33,678 bases of DNA. Origin: Azospirillaceae bacterium. GTDB lineage: Bacteria; Pseudomonadota; Alphaproteobacteria; Azospirillales; Azospirillaceae. Below the pieces are notes generated by a model, which saw only the letters and a list, made by a program, of their open reading frames with translations, had not been told where the DNA came from and ran no database searches. Shown in pieces: positions 158 through 28,929 of the stretch. The position numbers and the translations under genes were made by a program. Every line of letters begins with the position of its first letter. Within the stretch, counting starts at the first letter, position 1. The stretch lies in contig JANQJV010000209.1 of NCBI GenBank assembly GCA_028281465.1, positions 1 to 33,678 on the forward strand, given 5' to 3'.

Positions 158-1144
158 TTAGGCGGCACGCACCCAGGCGCGCACCTGGTCGAGAACGGCT
201 TCGTCCAGCGGGTGGCGCAGGGTACAGCCGGGTGTGACCAAGTGCCGATGCCCCTGCGTGGCGGTACGGCCGGCCCCAATCTGCTGCTTCACGGCCACCA
301 TGTCTCGGGCCGTCACACTCCAACGATTAAGGCCGCCAACCAGGGTCTTGCCCGTGAAGGCCCGGGCATCGGCCAAGCTGGGTGGCGTCTCCCAAACATG
401 CCAGTTGATCGCCTGTGCCGGGTACCGCTCCGCCACGTCGAAAAACCGCACGTCATCCCCATGCAGATGAACGATGGTGCACCACCCCATCGCAGCGGCT
501 TGCAACACGGCGATGTCATGGGGCACGGCCAATGCCTCGAACTGGGTGTCGCTGACCACACCACGGCCGACATGTTGGGTCGCAAAGAACACCCCCGCTG
601 CCCCGGCCGCAATGGCAGCAGCGGCCAGACGACCGGTGACGGCCGCGATGCTTGCAAGGCCGATGTCGACTGCGGCCTGTCCCGCCGGCGTACGGGCGTG
701 GTCGAACACGGCCCCCCGGGACAACTTGGCCGCGACGGTTAGAGGACTGAACACAGTGAACACGACTGGTATCTGGCCATCAACCAGCGCCAGCAAGCGG
801 CGCAAGGCGTTCAGTTCCCGTCCCAAAGCGCCGGTGCCGATGTCCAGCTTCGGCAGGGAAACCCAATCTTCCGGATGCCGCACCGGTGTCGCGGTGACAC
901 GCGCGACCCCTCCCTCGGCAACGGCGGTAAAATCGAGCGCACAACCATAGTCTTCAACCGCGTACATGCCGTTCGGCATGGTCTTGATGACATCGACATC
1001 ATGACGGCACGCGAATGTCCAGGTCGCATCGGCCAACTGGTTGGCATCCCGGTCCACCGCGGGCAGATGGGTCCAAAGGCTGAAAAGAGGCGGCAGTCCC
1101 TCTGCCCCGGCCAATAAGGCGCGCAATCGTTGAGGCTTGTCCAC
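158..1144 (-). CDS. Uroporphyrinogen decarboxylase (URO-D) family protein, MtaA/CmuA-like fold, substrate unknown
   Basis: This 328-residue soluble protein has URO-D superfamily features: an N-terminal LPPLFSLWTHLP segment, VDVIKTMPNGMY-VEDYG near residues 50-66, and a glycine/alanine-rich barrel. The family includes heme-pathway decarboxylases and zinc-dependent corrinoid methyltransferases (MtaA, MtbA, CmuA). In those methyltransferases zinc is held by an H-x-C motif and a later Cys. Here the motif reads H226-L-H228-G and the later Cys is C307 in TPGCTL, so an H/H/C metal site is plausible but inferred. The GTG start at 1144 is chosen because GAGAGGGG lies about 9 bases upstream and the start is just past the tctA stop. 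An ATG at 1162, inside tctA, is the alternative. Being last in a TTT operon suggests it acts on the imported compound. It is probably not HemE. Confidence 0.85.
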   Translation of the reverse strand: MDKPQRLRALLAGAEGLPPLFSLWTHLPAVDRDANQLADATWTFACRHDVDVIKTMPNGMYAVEDYGCALDFTAVAEGGVARVTATPVRHPEDWVSLPKLDIGTGALGRELNALRRLLALVDGQIPVVFTVFSPLTVAAKLSRGAVFDHARTPAGQAAVDIGLASIAAVTGRLAAAAIAAGAAGVFFATQHVGRGVVSDTQFEALAVPHDIAVLQAAAMGWCTIVHLHGDDVRFFDVAERYPAQAINWHVWETPPSLADARAFTGKTLVGGLNRWSVTARDMVAVKQQIGAGRTATQGHRHLVTPGCTLRHPLDEAVLDQVRAWVRAA

Positions 1145-1148
1145 CGCG

Positions 1149-2678
1149 TCAGCCCCTCTCATCCGCCATCTGCCGGGCCCGATCACGCCAAGCGCGCAAG
1201 ATTGGCCAGAGCAGGATCAGCAGGGTCAGGCCAAACAGGATCAGTGAAATCGGGCTGCGGAACAGTGCCGTCCAGTCGCCCAGATTGATCAACAGAGTCA
1301 GACGCAACTGCTGCTCCGCCATGCCGCCCAAAATCAGGCCCAGGATCACCGGGGCGAGAGGAAACTTGAGGCGGTCCATGGCATAGCCGACGAGGCCGAA
1401 GCCGAGCATGAGCCACACCTCGAACAGGCTGTTGTTGAGTGTGTAGACGCCGACCACAGCGAGGCCGAAAATCATCGGCGCCAGCAATACGCGTGGCAGC
1501 CGCAGCACCTGGGCGAAGGTGCGAACCGCAAACGGGCCGCCAAAGCCGATCAGCAACACCGAAGTGAGCAACATCTGGATCATGAAGCCATAGACGATGT
1601 CCGGATTGTCCCGGAACAACTGCGGACCAGGTTGCAGCCCATGCACCAGGAGGCCCGCAAGGATAACGGCGGACACACCACTCCCCGGTACGCCCAGAGT
1701 GAGGGCCGGGATCATGGCCGCCGCATTGTCGGCATTGTTGCCGCATTCCGCCGCCGCCACGCCAACCGGGTTGCCTTTGCCAAAACTGTTCTGGTCGCGC
1801 GCGGACCGTTTGGTCTCGTTGTAGGCGAGAAAAGCCGCCATGGAACCGCCAGTACCGGGCAGGATACCAACGAGGATACCGAAGAAGCCGCCGCGCAGCC
1901 ACGCCGGCACGAATCCTCGCCAATTCGCCAGCACCGACTCTCCGGGCCCGATCGCCAGGTCCTTCGCGCTCAGGCCTTTGGTCAAGGCGTCTTCGGCCAT
2001 CATGATAGCCGGGGGAATGGCATACAGGCCAGTCAACACCACGATCAGGTTCAGCCCATCGAGCAGATAGCGATTGCCGAAGGCGAAACGTTCATGGCCA
2101 GTCACCATATCCAGGCCGACCATGCCCAGTAGCAAGCCGAAGCAGGCCGACATGAGGCCCTTGATCGGATCGGCGCCCAACAGGACCGCGATGCTAGATA
2201 GGCCGAACACGGCCACCCAGAAGTACTCGGCAGGACCGAACATGAGCGTCACCTGGGCCAACGGCGGCGCGAAAAGCATGAGCGAGATCGCGCTGACTGT
2301 ACCGCCGATCGCCGACGACACGCAGGCGATCTTCAGGGCATACGCGGCCTGGCCACGTTGTGCCATGGGGTAGCCGTCGAACGTGGTGACGATGCTCGGC
2401 GGCGTGCCAGGAATGCGCAGAAGGATGGCCGGGATGGCGCCGCCGTACATGGCGCCATTGTAGATGCCGGCCATCATGCCGAGCGCCACCAGTGGGTCAA
2501 GGGTGAAGGTGAGCGGAATCAGGATGGCGATGGCCATCGTGGCGGACAGGCCGGGAAGCGAGCCAACCACCATGCCAGCCACCGTCCCGACCACGATCGC
2601 AACGACATTCTGCCACTGCAGCACCACCGACAGAGCATGCCAGAGTGGACCAAACAGCGTCCAGAGAGTCTCAGCCAT
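1149..2678 (-). CDS. tctA: TctA-type large membrane subunit of a tripartite tricarboxylate transporter
   Basis: This 509-residue polytopic inner-membrane protein forms the transport channel of a TTT importer, driven by an ion gradient and fed by the TctC binding protein. It shows the TctA signatures GSLPGLSATMAIAIL near the N-terminus, YGGAIPAILLRIPGTP about 60 residues further on, and VGVAAAECGNNADNAA in the middle, with about a dozen hydrophobic segments. The ATG at 2678 (MAETLW) is chosen because it overlaps the tctB stop by 8 bases, a coupling typical of tctBA pairs. Longer versions add a cysteine- and arginine-rich leader unlike the family. The transported carboxylate cannot be read from sequence. 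Confidence 0.93.
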   Translation of the reverse strand: MAETLWTLFGPLWHALSVVLQWQNVVAIVVGTVAGMVVGSLPGLSATMAIAILIPLTFTLDPLVALGMMAGIYNGAMYGGAIPAILLRIPGTPPSIVTTFDGYPMAQRGQAAYALKIACVSSAIGGTVSAISLMLFAPPLAQVTLMFGPAEYFWVAVFGLSSIAVLLGADPIKGLMSACFGLLLGMVGLDMVTGHERFAFGNRYLLDGLNLIVVLTGLYAIPPAIMMAEDALTKGLSAKDLAIGPGESVLANWRGFVPAWLRGGFFGILVGILPGTGGSMAAFLAYNETKRSARDQNSFGKGNPVGVAAAECGNNADNAAAMIPALTLGVPGSGVSAVILAGLLVHGLQPGPQLFRDNPDIVYGFMIQMLLTSVLLIGFGGPFAVRTFAQVLRLPRVLLAPMIFGLAVVGVYTLNNSLFEVWLMLGFGLVGYAMDRLKFPLAPVILGLILGGMAEQQLRLTLLINLGDWTALFRSPISLILFGLTLLILLWPILRAWRDRARQMADERG

Positions 2679-3288
2679 GGACCGTCTCCACGGACACCGG
2701 AACGTGTAGGGACCCGCGCAGGAAAAACTCCTGCGGCAAGGGCCGTTCAAAAGCGAGGATGAACACAACCCAAATGAAAGCCAGGAACGCCGCCAGGCTG
2801 ACCAAAATCGGCATCATGGCGCGGTACCCCATGAGCACGGTGAGCGCGACAAACATCGTGGCTGTGCCGCTGAAATAGCCGGCGACCTGGACCGCCGCGA
2901 CATAACCAACGAGCAGAGCCACCACCAGCCCGAACCGGGTCGGGTGGCGGAAAAACCGCCACGGTACCGGCGCATCCCCAGACGGATCGGTGCGGCCGTG
3001 TCTGAGACGGCGAAGCGAACGGGCCAGGAAGACGGTGCATAAAACAGCGAATACCAAAAGGATCGCTTGGGGAAACAATCGTGCGCTCTCGGGAACCTCG
3101 GCCAAAGACAGCCAAAGCACGGCGCACAACAGCAGGAGAACGGCCGCGGTCACGGCCTCCAGAACAGCATACGACACGACAACACGCATCCTCGACCCGT
3201 ACGCCAGGCCGGCCGAGGCAGATGCAGCCGGCACGACAGAGGCAGCGGAAAGAACCGGCGCCACATACGGTGGCGCCGGCCAATCCAT
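2671..3288 (-). CDS. tctB: TctB-type small membrane subunit of a tripartite tricarboxylate transporter
   Basis: This protein of about 205 residues has four strongly hydrophobic segments: VLEAVTAAVLLLLCAVLW, AILLVFAVLCTVFLA, VVALLVGYVAAVQVAGYF and the AFLAFIWVVFILAF tail. That is the usual TctB layout, a small membrane partner for TctA. The family is poorly conserved, so position between tctC and tctA is the main identification. The ATG at 3288 is 5 bases past the tctC stop and follows GGAAGTG. An ATG at 3189 would remove an unusual Ala/Pro/Ser-rich N-terminus of about 33 residues but has no well-placed ribosome binding site. Confidence 0.85.
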   Translation of the reverse strand: MDWPAPPYVAPVLSAASVVPAASASAGLAYGSRMRVVVSYAVLEAVTAAVLLLLCAVLWLSLAEVPESARLFPQAILLVFAVLCTVFLARSLRRLRHGRTDPSGDAPVPWRFFRHPTRFGLVVALLVGYVAAVQVAGYFSGTATMFVALTVLMGYRAMMPILVSLAAFLAFIWVVFILAFERPLPQEFFLRGSLHVPVSVETVHG

Positions 3289-3292
3289 GTCA

Positions 3293-4255
3293 TCACTTCC
3301 AAGGATCTTCGGCCCAGACGGCCGCCAGATTCTCGTCGGTCTGCACGATGAAGGCCGTGTACGCATCAGACGCCTGGTAGTTCAGCGGTACGTCGGCCTT
3401 GCGTGCGCTCTCCACATACTCTGGGTCGTCCATCGCCTGACCAATCGCCGCGGACAGTTTGGTCACCACCTCGACCGGCAAACCAGCCGGGCCGGCGATC
3501 CCACGTGAAGATCCGGCAACCAGGTCAACACCCTGTTCGATGAAGGTGGGGGTGTCGGCCGCCATGCCGCTGCGCTCCGCCGCCATCACCCCGAGGATTC
3601 GTAGCTGACCTTCTTCCTGATACTGTGTCGCTTCGCCCAGATTGAAGGCAGCCACCGGAATGTGGCCGCCAAGAAGGGCCGTGCGCAGCGGCGCGGTGCT
3701 GCCGAACGGAACATGGTTGAACTTCGTACCGGTCTTGTTCTCAAGCTGCTTGATCGCCAGGTGCTCGCTGGAGCCGACAGAGCCGCTTGTGCCGATGGGC
3801 AGGGCCCCTGGGTTTTCCTGGCCATACGCGATCAGATCGGCCAAACTCTCGAACGGGCTGTCGGCGCGAACAGCAAGAATGCCCGGGTCGTAGACCAGAT
3901 TGGCGATGGGCGTGAAGCTCTCTCGGCTGTATTCGGTTCGACGCTCATAGGAATAGGCGAACATGGCCGGCAGATTAATGAAACCGATGGTGTAACCATC
4001 CGGCTCGGCCTGGGCCAAGGCGGTGAAACCGACTTCACCGCCGGCGCCCGGCTTGTTTAAAATGGTCAAGTCGGCACCAAGGTATTTTTCAATGTACGGC
4101 TCGATGCTGCGCGCCGCCACATCGGTGCCGCCGCCGGGCGAAAACGCGACAATGACAGTGATCGGCTGCTCCGGATACTCGGCGACGGCCGTCCCGACGG
4201 CCACAGCGCCCAGACCCAGAGCAGCCAAGGCCGCAGTGAGGGATTTCCCGGTCAT
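3293..4255 (-). CDS. tctC: TctC/Bug-type periplasmic solute-binding protein
   Basis: This 320-residue exported protein is the high-affinity receptor of the TTT system. A signal peptide covers residues 1-25 (short basic start, alanine/leucine core, AVA before E26). The mature protein begins YPEQPITVIVAFSPGGGTD, the hallmark of the Bug/TctC family, followed by LNKPGAGGEVG and EPDGYTIG. Bug proteins bind organic acids through main-chain contacts in these loops, so the ligand cannot be inferred. The ATG at 4255 has GGAG close upstream and AAAGG further back. A TTG at 4264 would add three residues. It heads the operon tctC-tctB-tctA-URO-D, with two dyads and a hairpin upstream. Confidence 0.93.
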   Translation of the reverse strand: MTGKSLTAALAALGLGAVAVGTAVAEYPEQPITVIVAFSPGGGTDVAARSIEPYIEKYLGADLTILNKPGAGGEVGFTALAQAEPDGYTIGFINLPAMFAYSYERRTEYSRESFTPIANLVYDPGILAVRADSPFESLADLIAYGQENPGALPIGTSGSVGSSEHLAIKQLENKTGTKFNHVPFGSTAPLRTALLGGHIPVAAFNLGEATQYQEEGQLRILGVMAAERSGMAADTPTFIEQGVDLVAGSSRGIAGPAGLPVEVVTKLSAAIGQAMDDPEYVESARKADVPLNYQASDAYTAFIVQTDENLAAVWAEDPWK

Positions 4256-4298
4256 GGTCTCCAACCTTTTTTGATGACGGATTGGTAGCGGACCCGCA

Positions 4299-5034: not shown

Positions 5035-6348
5035 TCAAGGTGCTTGTCGCTGTTGGCGCAAACGTTGCCAATATTCCAGTCGTTTTCGCAGGTCTCGTTC
5101 GAAACCGCGTTCAACCGGCTCGTAGAATGTCTGTCGGGCCATGCCGTCGGGGAAGTAGCTCTGGCCGGAGAAGGCATCCGGTGCATCGTGATCATACGCG
5201 TAGCCGGTGCCGTACCCCAGAGATTTCATGAGCTTGGTCGGGGCGTTGAGAATGTGCAGCGGCGGGGCCAAGGACCCTGTGGATTTGGCCATCGCCGTGG
5301 CTGCCTTGAAAGCGACATAGGCGGCGTTGGACTTGGGCGCCGTGCCAAGGTAGATCACGCATTGTGCCAATGCCAACTCGCCTTCCGGTGAGCCAAGCCG
5401 CTCGTAGGTCTCCCAGGCGGCAACGGCCTGGGTGACCGCGGCCGGATCGGCCAATCCGATGTCTTCGATGGCGAACCGCAGCAAACGGCGCGCAATGTAG
5501 CGCGGGTCCTCGCCACCGGACAGCATGCGTGCCAACCAATACAACGCTGCATCGGTGTCAGACCCCCTCAGGGATTTGTGCAGCGCCGAAATCAGATTGT
5601 AATGGCTGTCCTGGCCCTTGTCGTAGAGCGGGGATCGCCGCTGCACGGCGGTCGTCAACGCCTCCGGCCCGAGGCGCCGACCCTCGGGCAGGGCGAACAG
5701 CTCTTCGCACAAGTTTAAGAGAAACCGACCGTCACCATCGGCCATGGCCTTCAGGATTTGTCGGGCATCGGCATCGACCGGTAGAGACCGGCCAACGATG
5801 ACCTCGGCCCGCCGCAGCAAGTGTTCCAGTGCTGCGTCCTCCAGACGCCGCAACACAAGCACCTGGGCCCGGCTGAGCAAGGCCGGGTTCAACTCGAACG
5901 ACGGATTCTCCGTGGTCGCTCCAACCAGAATCACCGTGCCGTCTTCCACATAGGGCAAAAAGCCGTCCTGTTGCGCCCGGTTGAAACGGTGGATTTCGTC
6001 GATGAACAGCAGGGTTCCCTGCCCTGCGGCTCGGCGTTGCTGAGCCCGATCGAAAACGCGACGCAGGTCCGCGACACCGGAAAACACAGCGGAAAGCGGT
6101 TCGTACACCAGCGCCGTGGTGTCGGCCAACAGACGTGCGATGGTCGTCTTGCCACTGCCAGGTGGCCCCCAAAGCACGAGAGACGCCAGACGGCCGGCTG
6201 CCACCATACGCCCGAGCGGCGCTTCCCGTGACAACAGGTGATCTTGGCCAACCACCTCATCCAGACTGGTCGGCCGCAGCCTGTCGGCCAAAGGCTTAGG
6301 GGCAGCCGATTCGAACAAACCCGCTTGCCCAGGGGTCGAACGCGGCAT
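5035..6348 (-). CDS. rarA: Replication-associated recombination protein A (RarA/MgsA AAA+ ATPase)
   Basis: This 437-residue cytoplasmic AAA+ ATPase belongs to the RarA/Mgs1/WRNIP1 clamp-loader-like family, which acts at stalled replication forks and binds SSB and DNA ends. Visible features are FESAAPKPLADRLRP-DEVVGQ at the N-terminus, Walker A GPPGSGKT at 61-68, Walker B LLFIDEIHRF with D117-E118, sensor-1 VGATTENPSF, and the C-terminal tetramerisation region with DIGLADP and a GYAYDHD-x-QSYFPD motif. Length matches the family. The ATG at 6348 overlaps the protease stop in TGATG, so the two are translationally coupled. A longer frame to 6402 would lie inside the protease gene. Confidence 0.95.
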   Translation of the reverse strand: MPRSTPGQAGLFESAAPKPLADRLRPTSLDEVVGQDHLLSREAPLGRMVAAGRLASLVLWGPPGSGKTTIARLLADTTALVYEPLSAVFSGVADLRRVFDRAQQRRAAGQGTLLFIDEIHRFNRAQQDGFLPYVEDGTVILVGATTENPSFELNPALLSRAQVLVLRRLEDAALEHLLRRAEVIVGRSLPVDADARQILKAMADGDGRFLLNLCEELFALPEGRRLGPEALTTAVQRRSPLYDKGQDSHYNLISALHKSLRGSDTDAALYWLARMLSGGEDPRYIARRLLRFAIEDIGLADPAAVTQAVAAWETYERLGSPEGELALAQCVIYLGTAPKSNAAYVAFKAATAMAKSTGSLAPPLHILNAPTKLMKSLGYGTGYAYDHDAPDAFSGQSYFPDGMARQTFYEPVERGFERDLRKRLEYWQRLRQQRQAP

Positions 6349-7760
6349 CACCGGATGGTGCTGGTGAGCACGCGATCGCCCCGGCGCAGACGCAGCCGCC
6401 ATGGTCCTCGCGAGCCGTCGAGGTGCGTGCGCAGGTGTTGCACCGTATCGATCGTGGTGCGGTTGATCTGCAAGATGATGTCGCCGACGCGAACGCCGAC
6501 ACGATCAGCAGCGCTGCGACGCACCAGGTCGAGCACGATCACCCCCTGGGCCGGTCCATCGAAATCCAGCTCTTCGGCCAGCGCGGGAGATAGATTGGCG
6601 ACGGTGGCCCCCGACAGCGGATGTCGTCCGCGCAGCTCAGTCACCCGGCGCGGCGGCACCTCTGGCGGCGCGATCAACGCAATGATGAGATCTTTCGCCT
6701 GTCCGTCACGCCGAATCGCCAACCGGGTCTCACCCCCGATCTCCCGCGTTGCGATGCGAAACCGCAGCGACTCCGGATCGTCCACCGTCCGACCATCCAC
6801 CGCCGTGATGACGTCGCCGACACGGAGCCCGGCCGCCGCCGCCGGACTCTGCGGGTGCAAGCGGCGAACCAAGACACCGGCTGGACGGTCGAGGCCAAGG
6901 CTCTGCGCAATGTCTCCAGTCACCGGTTGACCTTCGGCACCGAGCCAGGGACGCACCACCGGTCGCCCCTGCTCCACCGCCCTCAGCACCGAACGGACCA
7001 TGCTGGCCGGAATGGCAAAGCCAATGCCGATGGAGCCACCACCGCGACGCGCATAAATCGCCGTGTTGATGCCAACCAGGCGGCCGGCCATGTCGATCAG
7101 GGCACCACCCGAATTGCCCGGATTGATGGCAGCGTCGGTCTGAATGAAGAAATTATAGTCGCCGACGCGGACCCCGGTGCGCGCCAAAGCCGAAACGATG
7201 CCGCTGGTCACCGTCTGCCCAACACCAAACGGATTGCCGATGGCCAGAACCAAATCTCCGACCTCAAGCCCATCCGGATCGGCGAGCGGCACATGGGGCA
7301 ACGCTTCATCCACCGGATTGATGCGGAGAACCGCCAAATCGGTTCGTTCATCCACCGCAACACGAACGGCCTCGAACTCGCGCCGATCCGACAGGACGAC
7401 CGTCACCTGATCTGCATCCTCGATCACATGGGCGTTGGTAATGATCAACCCTTTGGCGCGGACAATGACGCCGGAACCGAGAGAATTCTGCACCCGCTCC
7501 CGAGGCCGACCAAAAGGAAAGTCACGCCCGAAAAACCGCCGGAAGAAGGGATCGTTCAAGAAGGGACTGAGCGGTCGCTCCGCCACCACTCGGCTCGTAA
7601 AAATATTCACCACGGCCGGAGCGACTCGTTTGACCAATGGCGCGAACGACAGCGCGATCTGCTCCCGGCTTTCTGGAACATCCTGCGCCGAGACAGTGTC
7701 AAGCCACGCAAAGGCCCAGACCACAAGCCCCAGCACCAGAAGCCATCGGCAACCGCACAC
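6348..7760 (-). CDS. Do-family periplasmic serine protease/chaperone (DegP/DegQ/MucD-like)
   Basis: This 470-residue HtrA-type protease degrades or refolds damaged envelope proteins. A signal peptide ends near residue 25 (VSA before QD). The trypsin-like domain has the triad H111 (TNAHVIEDAD), D141 (DERTDLAVL) and S217 (NPGNSGGAL). The segment FFRRFFGRDFPFGRPRERV before it resembles the LA loop. Two PDZ domains follow, at roughly 260-345 (GVLVRRLHPQSPAAAAGLRVGDVI) and 375-465 (VIVLDLVRRSAADRVGVRVGDII). The start is GTG at 7760 with GGAGG 7 bases upstream. A Do protease directly before rarA and after a small lipoprotein suggests a short stress-related operon. Whether it is orthologous to DegP, DegQ or MucD is not decided here. 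Confidence 0.93.
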   Translation of the reverse strand: MCGCRWLLVLGLVVWAFAWLDTVSAQDVPESREQIALSFAPLVKRVAPAVVNIFTSRVVAERPLSPFLNDPFFRRFFGRDFPFGRPRERVQNSLGSGVIVRAKGLIITNAHVIEDADQVTVVLSDRREFEAVRVAVDERTDLAVLRINPVDEALPHVPLADPDGLEVGDLVLAIGNPFGVGQTVTSGIVSALARTGVRVGDYNFFIQTDAAINPGNSGGALIDMAGRLVGINTAIYARRGGGSIGIGFAIPASMVRSVLRAVEQGRPVVRPWLGAEGQPVTGDIAQSLGLDRPAGVLVRRLHPQSPAAAAGLRVGDVITAVDGRTVDDPESLRFRIATREIGGETRLAIRRDGQAKDLIIALIAPPEVPPRRVTELRGRHPLSGATVANLSPALAEELDFDGPAQGVIVLDLVRRSAADRVGVRVGDIILQINRTTIDTVQHLRTHLDGSRGPWRLRLRRGDRVLTSTIR

Positions 7761-7855: not shown

Positions 7856-8161
7856 CTACTGCTTGCCACACGACTCCAGGCAGCGCTGCAACTGCCGGTC
7901 GCACACTGCCTGCGGACCAAAGAACTCATGCTGCACATCACGGCGCGCCGCCGCCGTATCGCCACAGCGGCCAAAATCGCGGTCGCAAGCTTGCCGGCAT
8001 TGACCGGACGGCACCGCGTTGTCCACGCTCGCCGCACGATCGTATTGCGGTGCCCGTTGAAGATCGCCGAACCCTAGACGGTCCAATGGCGACTCGAAAT
8101 TGTTACAAGCCACCAGCAGCCCAAGCGCCGCCAGACAAATCGGGACGTGTTTTCGCGACAC
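7856..8161 (-). CDS. Small cysteine-rich lipoprotein with mirror-symmetric cysteine spacing
   Basis: This 101-residue predicted lipoprotein has a signal ending in the lipobox LVAC (C19). I recognise no family. Six further cysteines lie at 55, 59, 66, 87, 94 and 98: C-x3-C-x6-C, a 20-residue loop, then C-x6-C-x3-C. Each outer-to-inner pair (55+98, 59+94, 66+87) sums to 153, which is what two antiparallel helices stapled by three disulfides would give. This is an inference, resembling CHCH or alpha-hairpinin architecture but with different spacing. The GTG start at 8161 has GAGGGGAG about 8 bases upstream. It sits 95 bases before the Do protease on the same strand, so a shared transcript is likely. 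Confidence 0.75.
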   Translation of the reverse strand: MSRKHVPICLAALGLLVACNNFESPLDRLGFGDLQRAPQYDRAASVDNAVPSGQCRQACDRDFGRCGDTAAARRDVQHEFFGPQAVCDRQLQRCLESCGKQ

Positions 8162-8319: not shown

Positions 8320-8739
8320 CTACTCTTCGTCGCCATCGCCTAAGTTTTGTATTGGACCGCTGTCCTTCCCCTTGGCGTCCATATCGCGATCGACGAACTC
8401 GATGATTGCCATGGGCGCCGCATCGCCTTGCCGGAAGCCGGCTTTAACGATGCGTGTATAGCCACCGTATCGGGTTCCATAACGGCCCGCCAGGGAGCCG
8501 AACAGTTTACGGACCATGACGTCGTCGCGCAGGAACGAAAAGGCGCGGCGCCGATGATGGAGGCTACCATGTTTACCCAGCGTGACCAACTTCTCCACGA
8601 TCGGACGAAGTTCCTTGGCCTTAGGCAAGGTGGTGGTAATCTGCTCGTGTTTGATCAGGGCATTAGCCATGTTGGAGAACATGGCTTTGCGGTGGCTTGC
8701 GGTCCTATGCAGCTTGCGTCCGCGGTTGGCGTGGCGCAT
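8320..8739 (-). CDS. rplQ: 50S ribosomal protein L17 (bL17)
   Basis: This 139-residue large-subunit protein begins [20 protein letters not shown], the L17 signature, and continues with [17 protein letters not shown] and the glycine/tyrosine-rich RYGGYTRI segment. The last 20 or so residues ([19 protein letters not shown]) are an acidic tail beyond the core. The ATG at 8739 follows AAGGAG at 10 bases. Last gene of the alpha operon after rpoA, as in most proteobacteria. Confidence 0.97.
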
Positions 8740-8839
8740 GGCGACGGCACTCCTTAAGGCATGCAACCGGTCGGCCGCTCCTGTGCCGGCACCGCCCTCG
8801 GACATGAGAGGGCAACCGGACGGAAGTTCGGCGATCGGA

Positions 8840-28018: not shown

Positions 28019-28561
28019 TCAGCGGCTTCGCCCCTCCCGGTTGAAAGCAAGCTCGGCACGGCTCAAACGGAAGCCGACGAGAACGGCGTGGTTCGGACCG
28101 GCCTGCACGTCGGTGAGCGGAATCCACTGCTCAAGTGCCTCCTGTGACCCGGCGGTACGAACGCCGTTCTCGAACCGGACCTCGGTCTCAAACGATTGCC
28201 ACTCAAGGACCATCCGATCGGGTGACGTGACACTCACGAAATAGCTCAAAGGCAACCGGTCCACCGTTAGGGCCGGGCCTCGTTCAGCCAGGACCGCCAA
28301 GTCGAATTGGATGTCAACCCCGTCATCGCGGTAAGCGCAGGTGCCGTCAACCATGCGAAGCTCGGCTATGGCCATCACATTGGCCGGTGTCGAAAGGGTC
28401 TCGGGGCCAAACCGCGTAAGGTGCGCAGCATCGGCCACCAGCGCAACCGTGGGACACGCCGGGTCTAAGACCGTCGCCGTATCGGACGAACAGGCAACGA
28501 GCAGCACGCTGCCGATGACGGGGGCCAGAAATGCGGCGGAATGGCAATGGATCCGAAGCAT
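28019..28561 (-). CDS. Hypothetical lipoprotein, 180 residues
   Basis: The signal sequence ends in a lipobox LVAC with C24 as the lipidated residue, followed by SSD. The mature part has two further cysteines (C36, C75), which could form a disulfide, and a conserved-looking middle (ACPTVALVADAAHLTRFGP, CAYRDDGVDIQFDLAV) and end (EQWIPLTDVQAGPNHAVLVGFRLSRAELAFN). The protein reads as a globular beta-rich domain of unknown function. The ATG at 28561 gives a proper signal peptide, though the ribosome binding site is weak. A longer frame to 28810 runs through the tRNA gene and is rejected. Confidence 0.75.
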   Translation of the reverse strand: MLRIHCHSAAFLAPVIGSVLLVACSSDTATVLDPACPTVALVADAAHLTRFGPETLSTPANVMAIAELRMVDGTCAYRDDGVDIQFDLAVLAERGPALTVDRLPLSYFVSVTSPDRMVLEWQSFETEVRFENGVRTAGSQEALEQWIPLTDVQAGPNHAVLVGFRLSRAELAFNREGRSR

Positions 28562-28722
28562 GGGTAAAAACACTTTCTGCGGCAAGGATTGCGGGCCGGA
28601 GAGTAGGCCAACGCCGGCGCCGGAACAAGCCGGCCACAACCGTACCGGCGCCGTCACGCGGGACTTGAACCGTCGCCGCCCATCTGCTAGCCAAAGTTGA
28701 TGATCCCTTGCGGTCTGCCTGG

Positions 28723-28809
28723 GCGGTCGTGGCGGAATTGGTAGACGCGCAGCGTTGAGGTCGCTGTGGGAGAAATCCCGTGGAAGTTCGAGTCTTCTCG
28801 ACCGCACCA
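28723..28809 (+). tRNA. tRNA-Leu (anticodon GAG)
   Basis: The 87-base gene has a perfect 7-bp acceptor stem (GCGGTCG with CGACCGC), a D-arm of the leucine type (GGCGGAATTGGTAGACGC), an anticodon loop TTGAGGT with GAG, a long variable arm (GGGAGAAATCCC) and a TTCGAGT T-loop. Discriminator A and CCA are encoded. It reads CUC and CUU codons. It stands alone, with no other tRNA nearby. Confidence 0.96.
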
Positions 28810-28929
28810 TATCAAATCTGTTTTCCTTGAGCGGCTAAACGGCCGTTGTGGCGTTCTGCCGACACAATGCCATGCACTGCGCCGATGTCCGACGTGCCGG
28901 CGCATGGTGCCGTATGGGGTCCGACTCGC

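Follow-up and report, generated by a model that had tools for sequence, protein, structure and literature searches.

The six-cysteine lipoprotein gene and its locus

The window analysed here is a stretch of 33,678 nucleotides (contig JANQJV010000209.1, assembly GCA_028281465.1) from a bacterium of the family Azospirillaceae. It carries a small gene for a six-cysteine lipoprotein (Table 1), which the initial annotation had reported without a strand and which lies on the minus strand. An SD-like sequence, AGGGGAGAG, is found immediately 5' of its GTG start codon. The signal peptide, MSRKHVPICLAALGLLVAC, consists of a basic n-region and a hydrophobic stretch followed by the lipobox LVAC, as is characteristic of lipoproteins processed by SPase II; one additional cysteine, C9, sits within it. 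The translation bears out the mirror-image arrangement described for this protein: the cysteines at positions 55, 59, 66, 87, 94 and 98 read C-x3-C-x6-C, 20 residues, C-x6-C-x3-C, and the positions of the three nested pairs share a common sum of 153.

Table 1. Coordinates in the window of the lipoprotein gene, the segments of its product and the neighbouring genes
Feature	Position	Strand	Remarks
Six-Cys lipoprotein gene	7856..8161	minus	GTG start at 8161; stop codon 7856-7858; 101 aa
Lipoprotein signal peptide	8105..8161	minus	ends in lipobox L-V-A; lipidated Cys19 is the next codon, 8105-8107, within the range
Low-complexity linker, residues 20-54	8000..8104	minus	lipid anchor to hairpin; low pLDDT
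Predicted helix 1, residues 51-73	7943..8011	minus	Cys55, Cys59 and Cys66 on one face; Arg61/Asp68/Ala72 stripe on another
Predicted helix 2, residues 83-100	7862..7915	minus	Cys87, Cys94 and Cys98 on one face; near-invariant Leu91
rplQ (ribosomal protein L17)	8320..8805	minus	next upstream
Do-type (DegP/DegQ-like) serine protease gene	6348..7760	minus	next downstream; partnership only a candidate
rarA/mgsA (replication-associated recombination protein A)	5035..6402	minus	third gene of the conserved locus; basis includes a homologue's annotated name

The genes rplQ, lipoprotein, degP and rarA lie on one strand at the end of a large ribosomal protein cluster. The lipoprotein gene had correctly been placed directly upstream of a Do protease, as the degP-like gene begins 95 nt downstream of the lipoprotein stop codon. 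No promoter or terminator was called in the intergenic regions.

The order rplQ - lipoprotein - degP - rarA is the usual one. In Azospirillum (g11), where the lipoprotein gene is single copy and universal among the sampled genomes, degP is absent from the locus in 47 of 47 genomes and rarA adjoins the lipoprotein gene in most of them; in the annotated case of Azospirillum thermophilum a YqaA-family gene lies between rplQ and the lipoprotein gene. Two of the five genomes of genus g6 (G015, G020) also lack degP at the locus, and there the lipoprotein gene overlaps rarA by 4 nt. Genus g217 (family f15) shows the order rplQ - lipoprotein - rarA, degP is absent within the stretch read in genus g200 (family f115), and the pair of lipoprotein gene and degP is separated from rplQ in several g12 genomes.

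As to how often the Do protease is a neighbour, degP follows the lipoprotein gene in 18 of 21 genera (counted by hand), versus 38 of 76 loci without the lipoprotein (p 0.005); these 76 are full-length rplQ neighbourhoods, one per family, and the lipoprotein is present in none. Outside the window's order degP follows in seven of nine genera, which is not significant (p 0.16). Since the lipoprotein persists without degP, and rplQ-degP occurs without the lipoprotein, the Do protease is often adjacent, within an old gene order, but is no obligate partner. Of the earlier suggestion that the adjacent protease is the sort of partner that handles disulfide-rich envelope proteins, the frequent adjacency stands, while the partnership is weakened by the non-significant enrichment outside the order and by the survival of the gene where degP has left the locus, including all the Azospirillum genomes.

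Two observations on individual loci may be added. At loci L107 and L108 of genus g6 it is the lipoprotein stop that overlaps the rarA start, and this 4-nt overlap points to coupled translation of an envelope gene and a replication-recombination gene. At locus L222 of A. thermophilum (NZ_CP029358.1, 488-7533) a block of rpsM, rpsK, rpoA, rplQ and lipoprotein-rarA is carried on 'plasmid unnamed3'; essential ribosomal genes are found there on a secondary replicon of 406 kb, and a gene for an ISAs1 transposase lies shortly before rpsM.

Distribution and conservation of the family

A profile search of 82 genomes from the window's order detected the family in 81, with one match per genome. Eight further alphaproteobacterial families also have members, in nine genera altogether; family f115 accounts for two of these genera. 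The first relatives to be found were ten within Azospirillaceae, in which all seven cysteines, the lipidated one included, are invariant; loci from Skermanella aerolata (L122) and from an Azospirillaceae MAG (L121) are among those related to the window's lipoprotein. The sole genome of the order in which no copy was detected (L226; G006:C23:159000-167200) has a gap of about 3.5 kb between rplQ and degP, and the lipoprotein gene may have been lost there together with a rearrangement.

No member was detected outside Alphaproteobacteria in a 349-genome sample of Pseudomonadota, although absence from the genomes of the class and phylum samples is weak evidence because the number of candidates that these many-genome searches scored in each genome was limited (14-18 in the largest searches). 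A motif search of 80 rplQ neighbourhoods, one per family, revealed neither additional members nor a relaxed twin CX3C form. Three candidate members, G140 (partial, with stops), G077 and G048, proved spurious. From these searches the family is apparently restricted, so far, to Alphaproteobacteria.

Of the 89 loci of the order that were examined, all 89 show the exact cysteine pattern, the inner loop being 18-27 residues long; the pattern is likewise exact in all 45 non-redundant sequences. Across the class, no full-length copy read departs from the six cysteines or from their 3/6 and 6/3 spacings, while the length of the inner loop ranges between 18 and 30 residues and the most divergent copies share about 20 per cent identity with the window's protein. 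The alignment of homologues proposed in the initial annotation as a check on the pattern has therefore come out in its favour. With six cysteines placed at random in 81 residues, a palindromic spacing arises with a probability of 0.0013 and the exact steps 4, 7, any, 7, 4 with one of 7.5e-6. A palindrome seen in 0.13 per cent of random trials would not be striking by itself. The motif occurs in none of the 2,945 ORFs (356,415 aa) of 80 random rplQ neighbourhoods. The decisive evidence is conservation and, judged by it, the cysteine pattern is not due to chance.

The six cysteines are the only invariant residues across the 45 sequences. The next most conserved are an Asp two residues after the third cysteine (39/45), a Leu four after the fourth (36/45), an Ala six after the third (34/45) and an Arg two after the second (32/45). 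On helix 1 the Arg, Asp and Ala line up in a single stripe that lies 220-260 degrees round from the first cysteine, far from the cysteine face. About one third of the non-cysteine helix positions are hydrophobic. Such a composition would fit a hydrophobic groove for client proteins less well than it would a scaffold that cystines hold together and that has a single contact surface. The hairpin domain is under purifying selection in the relatives, with a median dN/dS of 0.29 (547 pairs).

The lipobox passes an automatic filter at 88 of the 89 loci of the order, and the exception, L141, reads LAGC by eye. One member outside this pattern, L120/L024 (G079), has the six cysteines and a 30-residue loop together with an ordinary signal peptide ending in TPAFA, without a lipobox; the lipid anchor is consequently not universal in the family.

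Predicted fold and comparison with known disulfide hairpins

An AlphaFold2 model built from the 45 sequences places helices at domain residues 9-31 and 41-58, which correspond to the two helices of Table 1; pLDDT is about 80-87 across the cysteine segments, and pTM is only 0.52. An earlier AlphaFold2 run on the whole protein agrees with the domain model. The cysteine steps of 4+7 and 7+4 bring each triplet onto one helical face (0, 40 and 20 degrees; 0, 340 and 20 degrees). Structures matching the whole length of the model are ordinary antiparallel helical hairpins, among them a lengthened Rop, Gfh1 and the MexA hairpin. Z is below 8 for all of them, and these matches support the hairpin arrangement and nothing beyond it. 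As the inner loop is free and the outer spacings are fixed, we infer a nested pairing 1-6, 2-5, 3-4 (C55-C98, C59-C94, C66-C87). The proposal of two antiparallel helices joined by three disulfides, made from the window's sequence, is thus supported by the invariant cysteines, the variable loop, the one-face triplets, the modelled helices and the hairpin matches, the pairing itself being the probable reading of these spacings.

Searches of Pfam, NCBIfam and PDB sequences with single proteins and with profiles gave nothing above chance; for these three databases, the statement that no described family has this spacing holds. Weak matches of one or two members each to Toxin_37, Phospholip_A2_2, the LIC_10730 family, Lepto_8Cys, OutS and ribosomal L44 were set aside as noise from cysteine composition. 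No description of the lipoprotein gene was found in the literature, and the A. thermophilum product, WP_109333905.1, is annotated as 'hypothetical protein'.

Several known proteins share parts of the predicted architecture. Small Tims, the twin CX3C chaperones found in the mitochondrial intermembrane space, consist of two antiparallel helices with a CX3C in each, joined by cross-hairpin disulfides, with the spacing CX3C-X14-16-CX3C (PMC12114033). The predicted lipoprotein hairpin likewise has a CX3C in each of its two helices, but these lie 32-44 residues apart (34 in the window's protein) instead of 14-16, with two further cysteines, a third pair, between them, and the protein has a lipid anchor; the small Tim profile matched no member of the family. 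CHCH, or twin CX9C, proteins are helical hairpins held by two disulfides, one inner and one outer (PMC12114033). The outer-to-inner distance in the lipoprotein is close to theirs; however, every copy reads C-x3-C-x6-C, that is, a CX10C with a middle cysteine, which gives a middle rung and a spacing of 10 rather than 9, and the loop is long. With a cut-off of E 1, the CHCH profile matched none of the 45 members.

Plant alpha-hairpinins follow the formula C1-X3-C2-(X)n-C3-X3-C4 in a helix-loop-helix (PMC4695807). The outer four cysteines of the lipoprotein fit this formula, with two more between them. Alpha-hairpinins differ in having two disulfides and in being secreted defence peptides of 30-50 aa, and only one of the 45 members matches PF14861, with E 0.97. 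Neurotoxin B-IV-like proteins (Pfam Toxin_13) also form a helical hairpin with several disulfides. These are secreted animal proteins, and the two of 45 members that match them do so at E 0.4 or worse, evidence on which no homology can be claimed. The CHCH, small Tim and alpha-hairpinin folds are absent from the structure-match lists, which proves nothing. Because the spacing and profile comparisons with small Tims and CHCH proteins and the sequence comparison with alpha-hairpinins all failed, we class the protein as a lipid-anchored hairpin distinct from these. It represents an unnamed and unrecorded lipoprotein family, apparently with a three-rung hairpin.

Possible role in the cell envelope

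We consider it reasonably probable that the protein is an outer-membrane-tethered, disulfide-stapled helical hairpin that serves as a binding module, possibly in envelope quality control. The lipoprotein would be exported by Sec and lipidated at Cys19; the residue at +2 after the lipidated cysteine is never Asp at the loci of the order and, under the +2 rule, the outer membrane would be its destination. A flexible linker, 10 to 56 residues long in the relatives, would then hold an antiparallel hairpin of about 50 residues in the periplasm, where the DsbA/DsbB system could form the disulfide ladder with the nested pairing proposed above. DsbB is encoded in the same genome (E 3.8e-30). If cystines and not a hydrophobic core hold the fold, the non-cysteine residues would be free to drift. 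The rigid hairpin would act in binding, with the Arg61-Asp68-Ala72 stripe, which faces off the cysteines, as its likely contact surface. Protein quality control in the envelope, beside Do proteases, would be the most plausible setting and one independent of the adjacent degP gene; this setting is weakened by lineages, Azospirillum among them, that keep the lipoprotein gene but have lost degP from the locus. Also counting against the hairpin explanation are the low pTM, the member without a lipobox and the fact that the invariant cysteines could also bind metal.

The hairpin might instead be a membrane-tethered adaptor or inhibitor dedicated to the adjacent trypsin-fold Do protease, much as two alpha-hairpinins, VhT1 and BWI-2c, inhibit trypsin (PMC4695807). 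The enrichment of degP next to the lipoprotein gene and the pair that stays together away from rplQ in genus g12 are in line with such a dedication. Against it, the lipoprotein is kept without degP at the locus in the 47 Azospirillum genomes, in two of the five g6 genomes and in genera of f15 and f115, half of the sampled families have rplQ-degP without the lipoprotein, and the enrichment is not significant outside the order. Do proteases cleave after small aliphatic residues, and for this reason the conserved Arg would not be an obvious bait. The analogy of a trypsin-inhibiting hairpin beside a Do protease is attractive, but synteny is not proof, and we regard a dedicated partnership as unlikely.

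A purely structural role, as a small outer-membrane spacer or stabiliser with no specific partner and a place in the locus owed to inherited gene order, would agree with the extreme drift of the non-cysteine residues and with the persistence of the gene among differing neighbours. The conserved stripe off the cysteine face suggests a contact surface instead, and retention of one copy in nearly every genome of the order also speaks against it; we hold this reading, too, to be rather improbable. A metal-binding or redox-sensing lipoprotein, whose six thiols would at times be reduced and would bind metal or switch state, would account for an alignment with six invariant cysteines and few other invariant residues, as sensing would need all six too, but it is quite improbable given a mirror spacing and free loop that cross-helix pairs demand and a metal site does not need, export into an oxidising compartment, the DsbB gene and the lack of any above-chance match to metal-binding families.

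The mitochondrial intermembrane space derives from the periplasm (PMC12114033). It is conceivable, and in our opinion very improbable, that the three-rung hairpin is an ancient module in the periplasm of Alphaproteobacteria, the mitochondrial lineage, and that, by function or remote descent, it is the bacterial counterpart of the disulfide hairpins of the intermembrane space. Tethered to the membrane, it would then escort envelope proteins or serve as a protease adaptor for them.

The interest of this lipoprotein family lies in its being order-wide and previously unrecorded, with its cysteine geometry as the one rule that it strictly keeps. It could offer a natural mini-scaffold that is probably very stable, and a clean readout of oxidative folding in the periplasm of Alphaproteobacteria. 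For the plant-growth genus Azospirillum it is a candidate new envelope factor.

Elsewhere in the window, on the same strand, a second ORF with a lipobox-like stretch, VLLVACSSDTATVLDPACP, lies at 28019-28810; it is listed with 263 aa, and its true start is probably later. Within 158-4264, three minus-strand ORFs were named by eye only: one at 1149-2768 resembles the membrane subunit of a tripartite tricarboxylate transporter, one at 3293-4264 is like the binding protein of such a transporter, and a uroporphyrinogen-decarboxylase-like ORF (158-1186) lies beside them.
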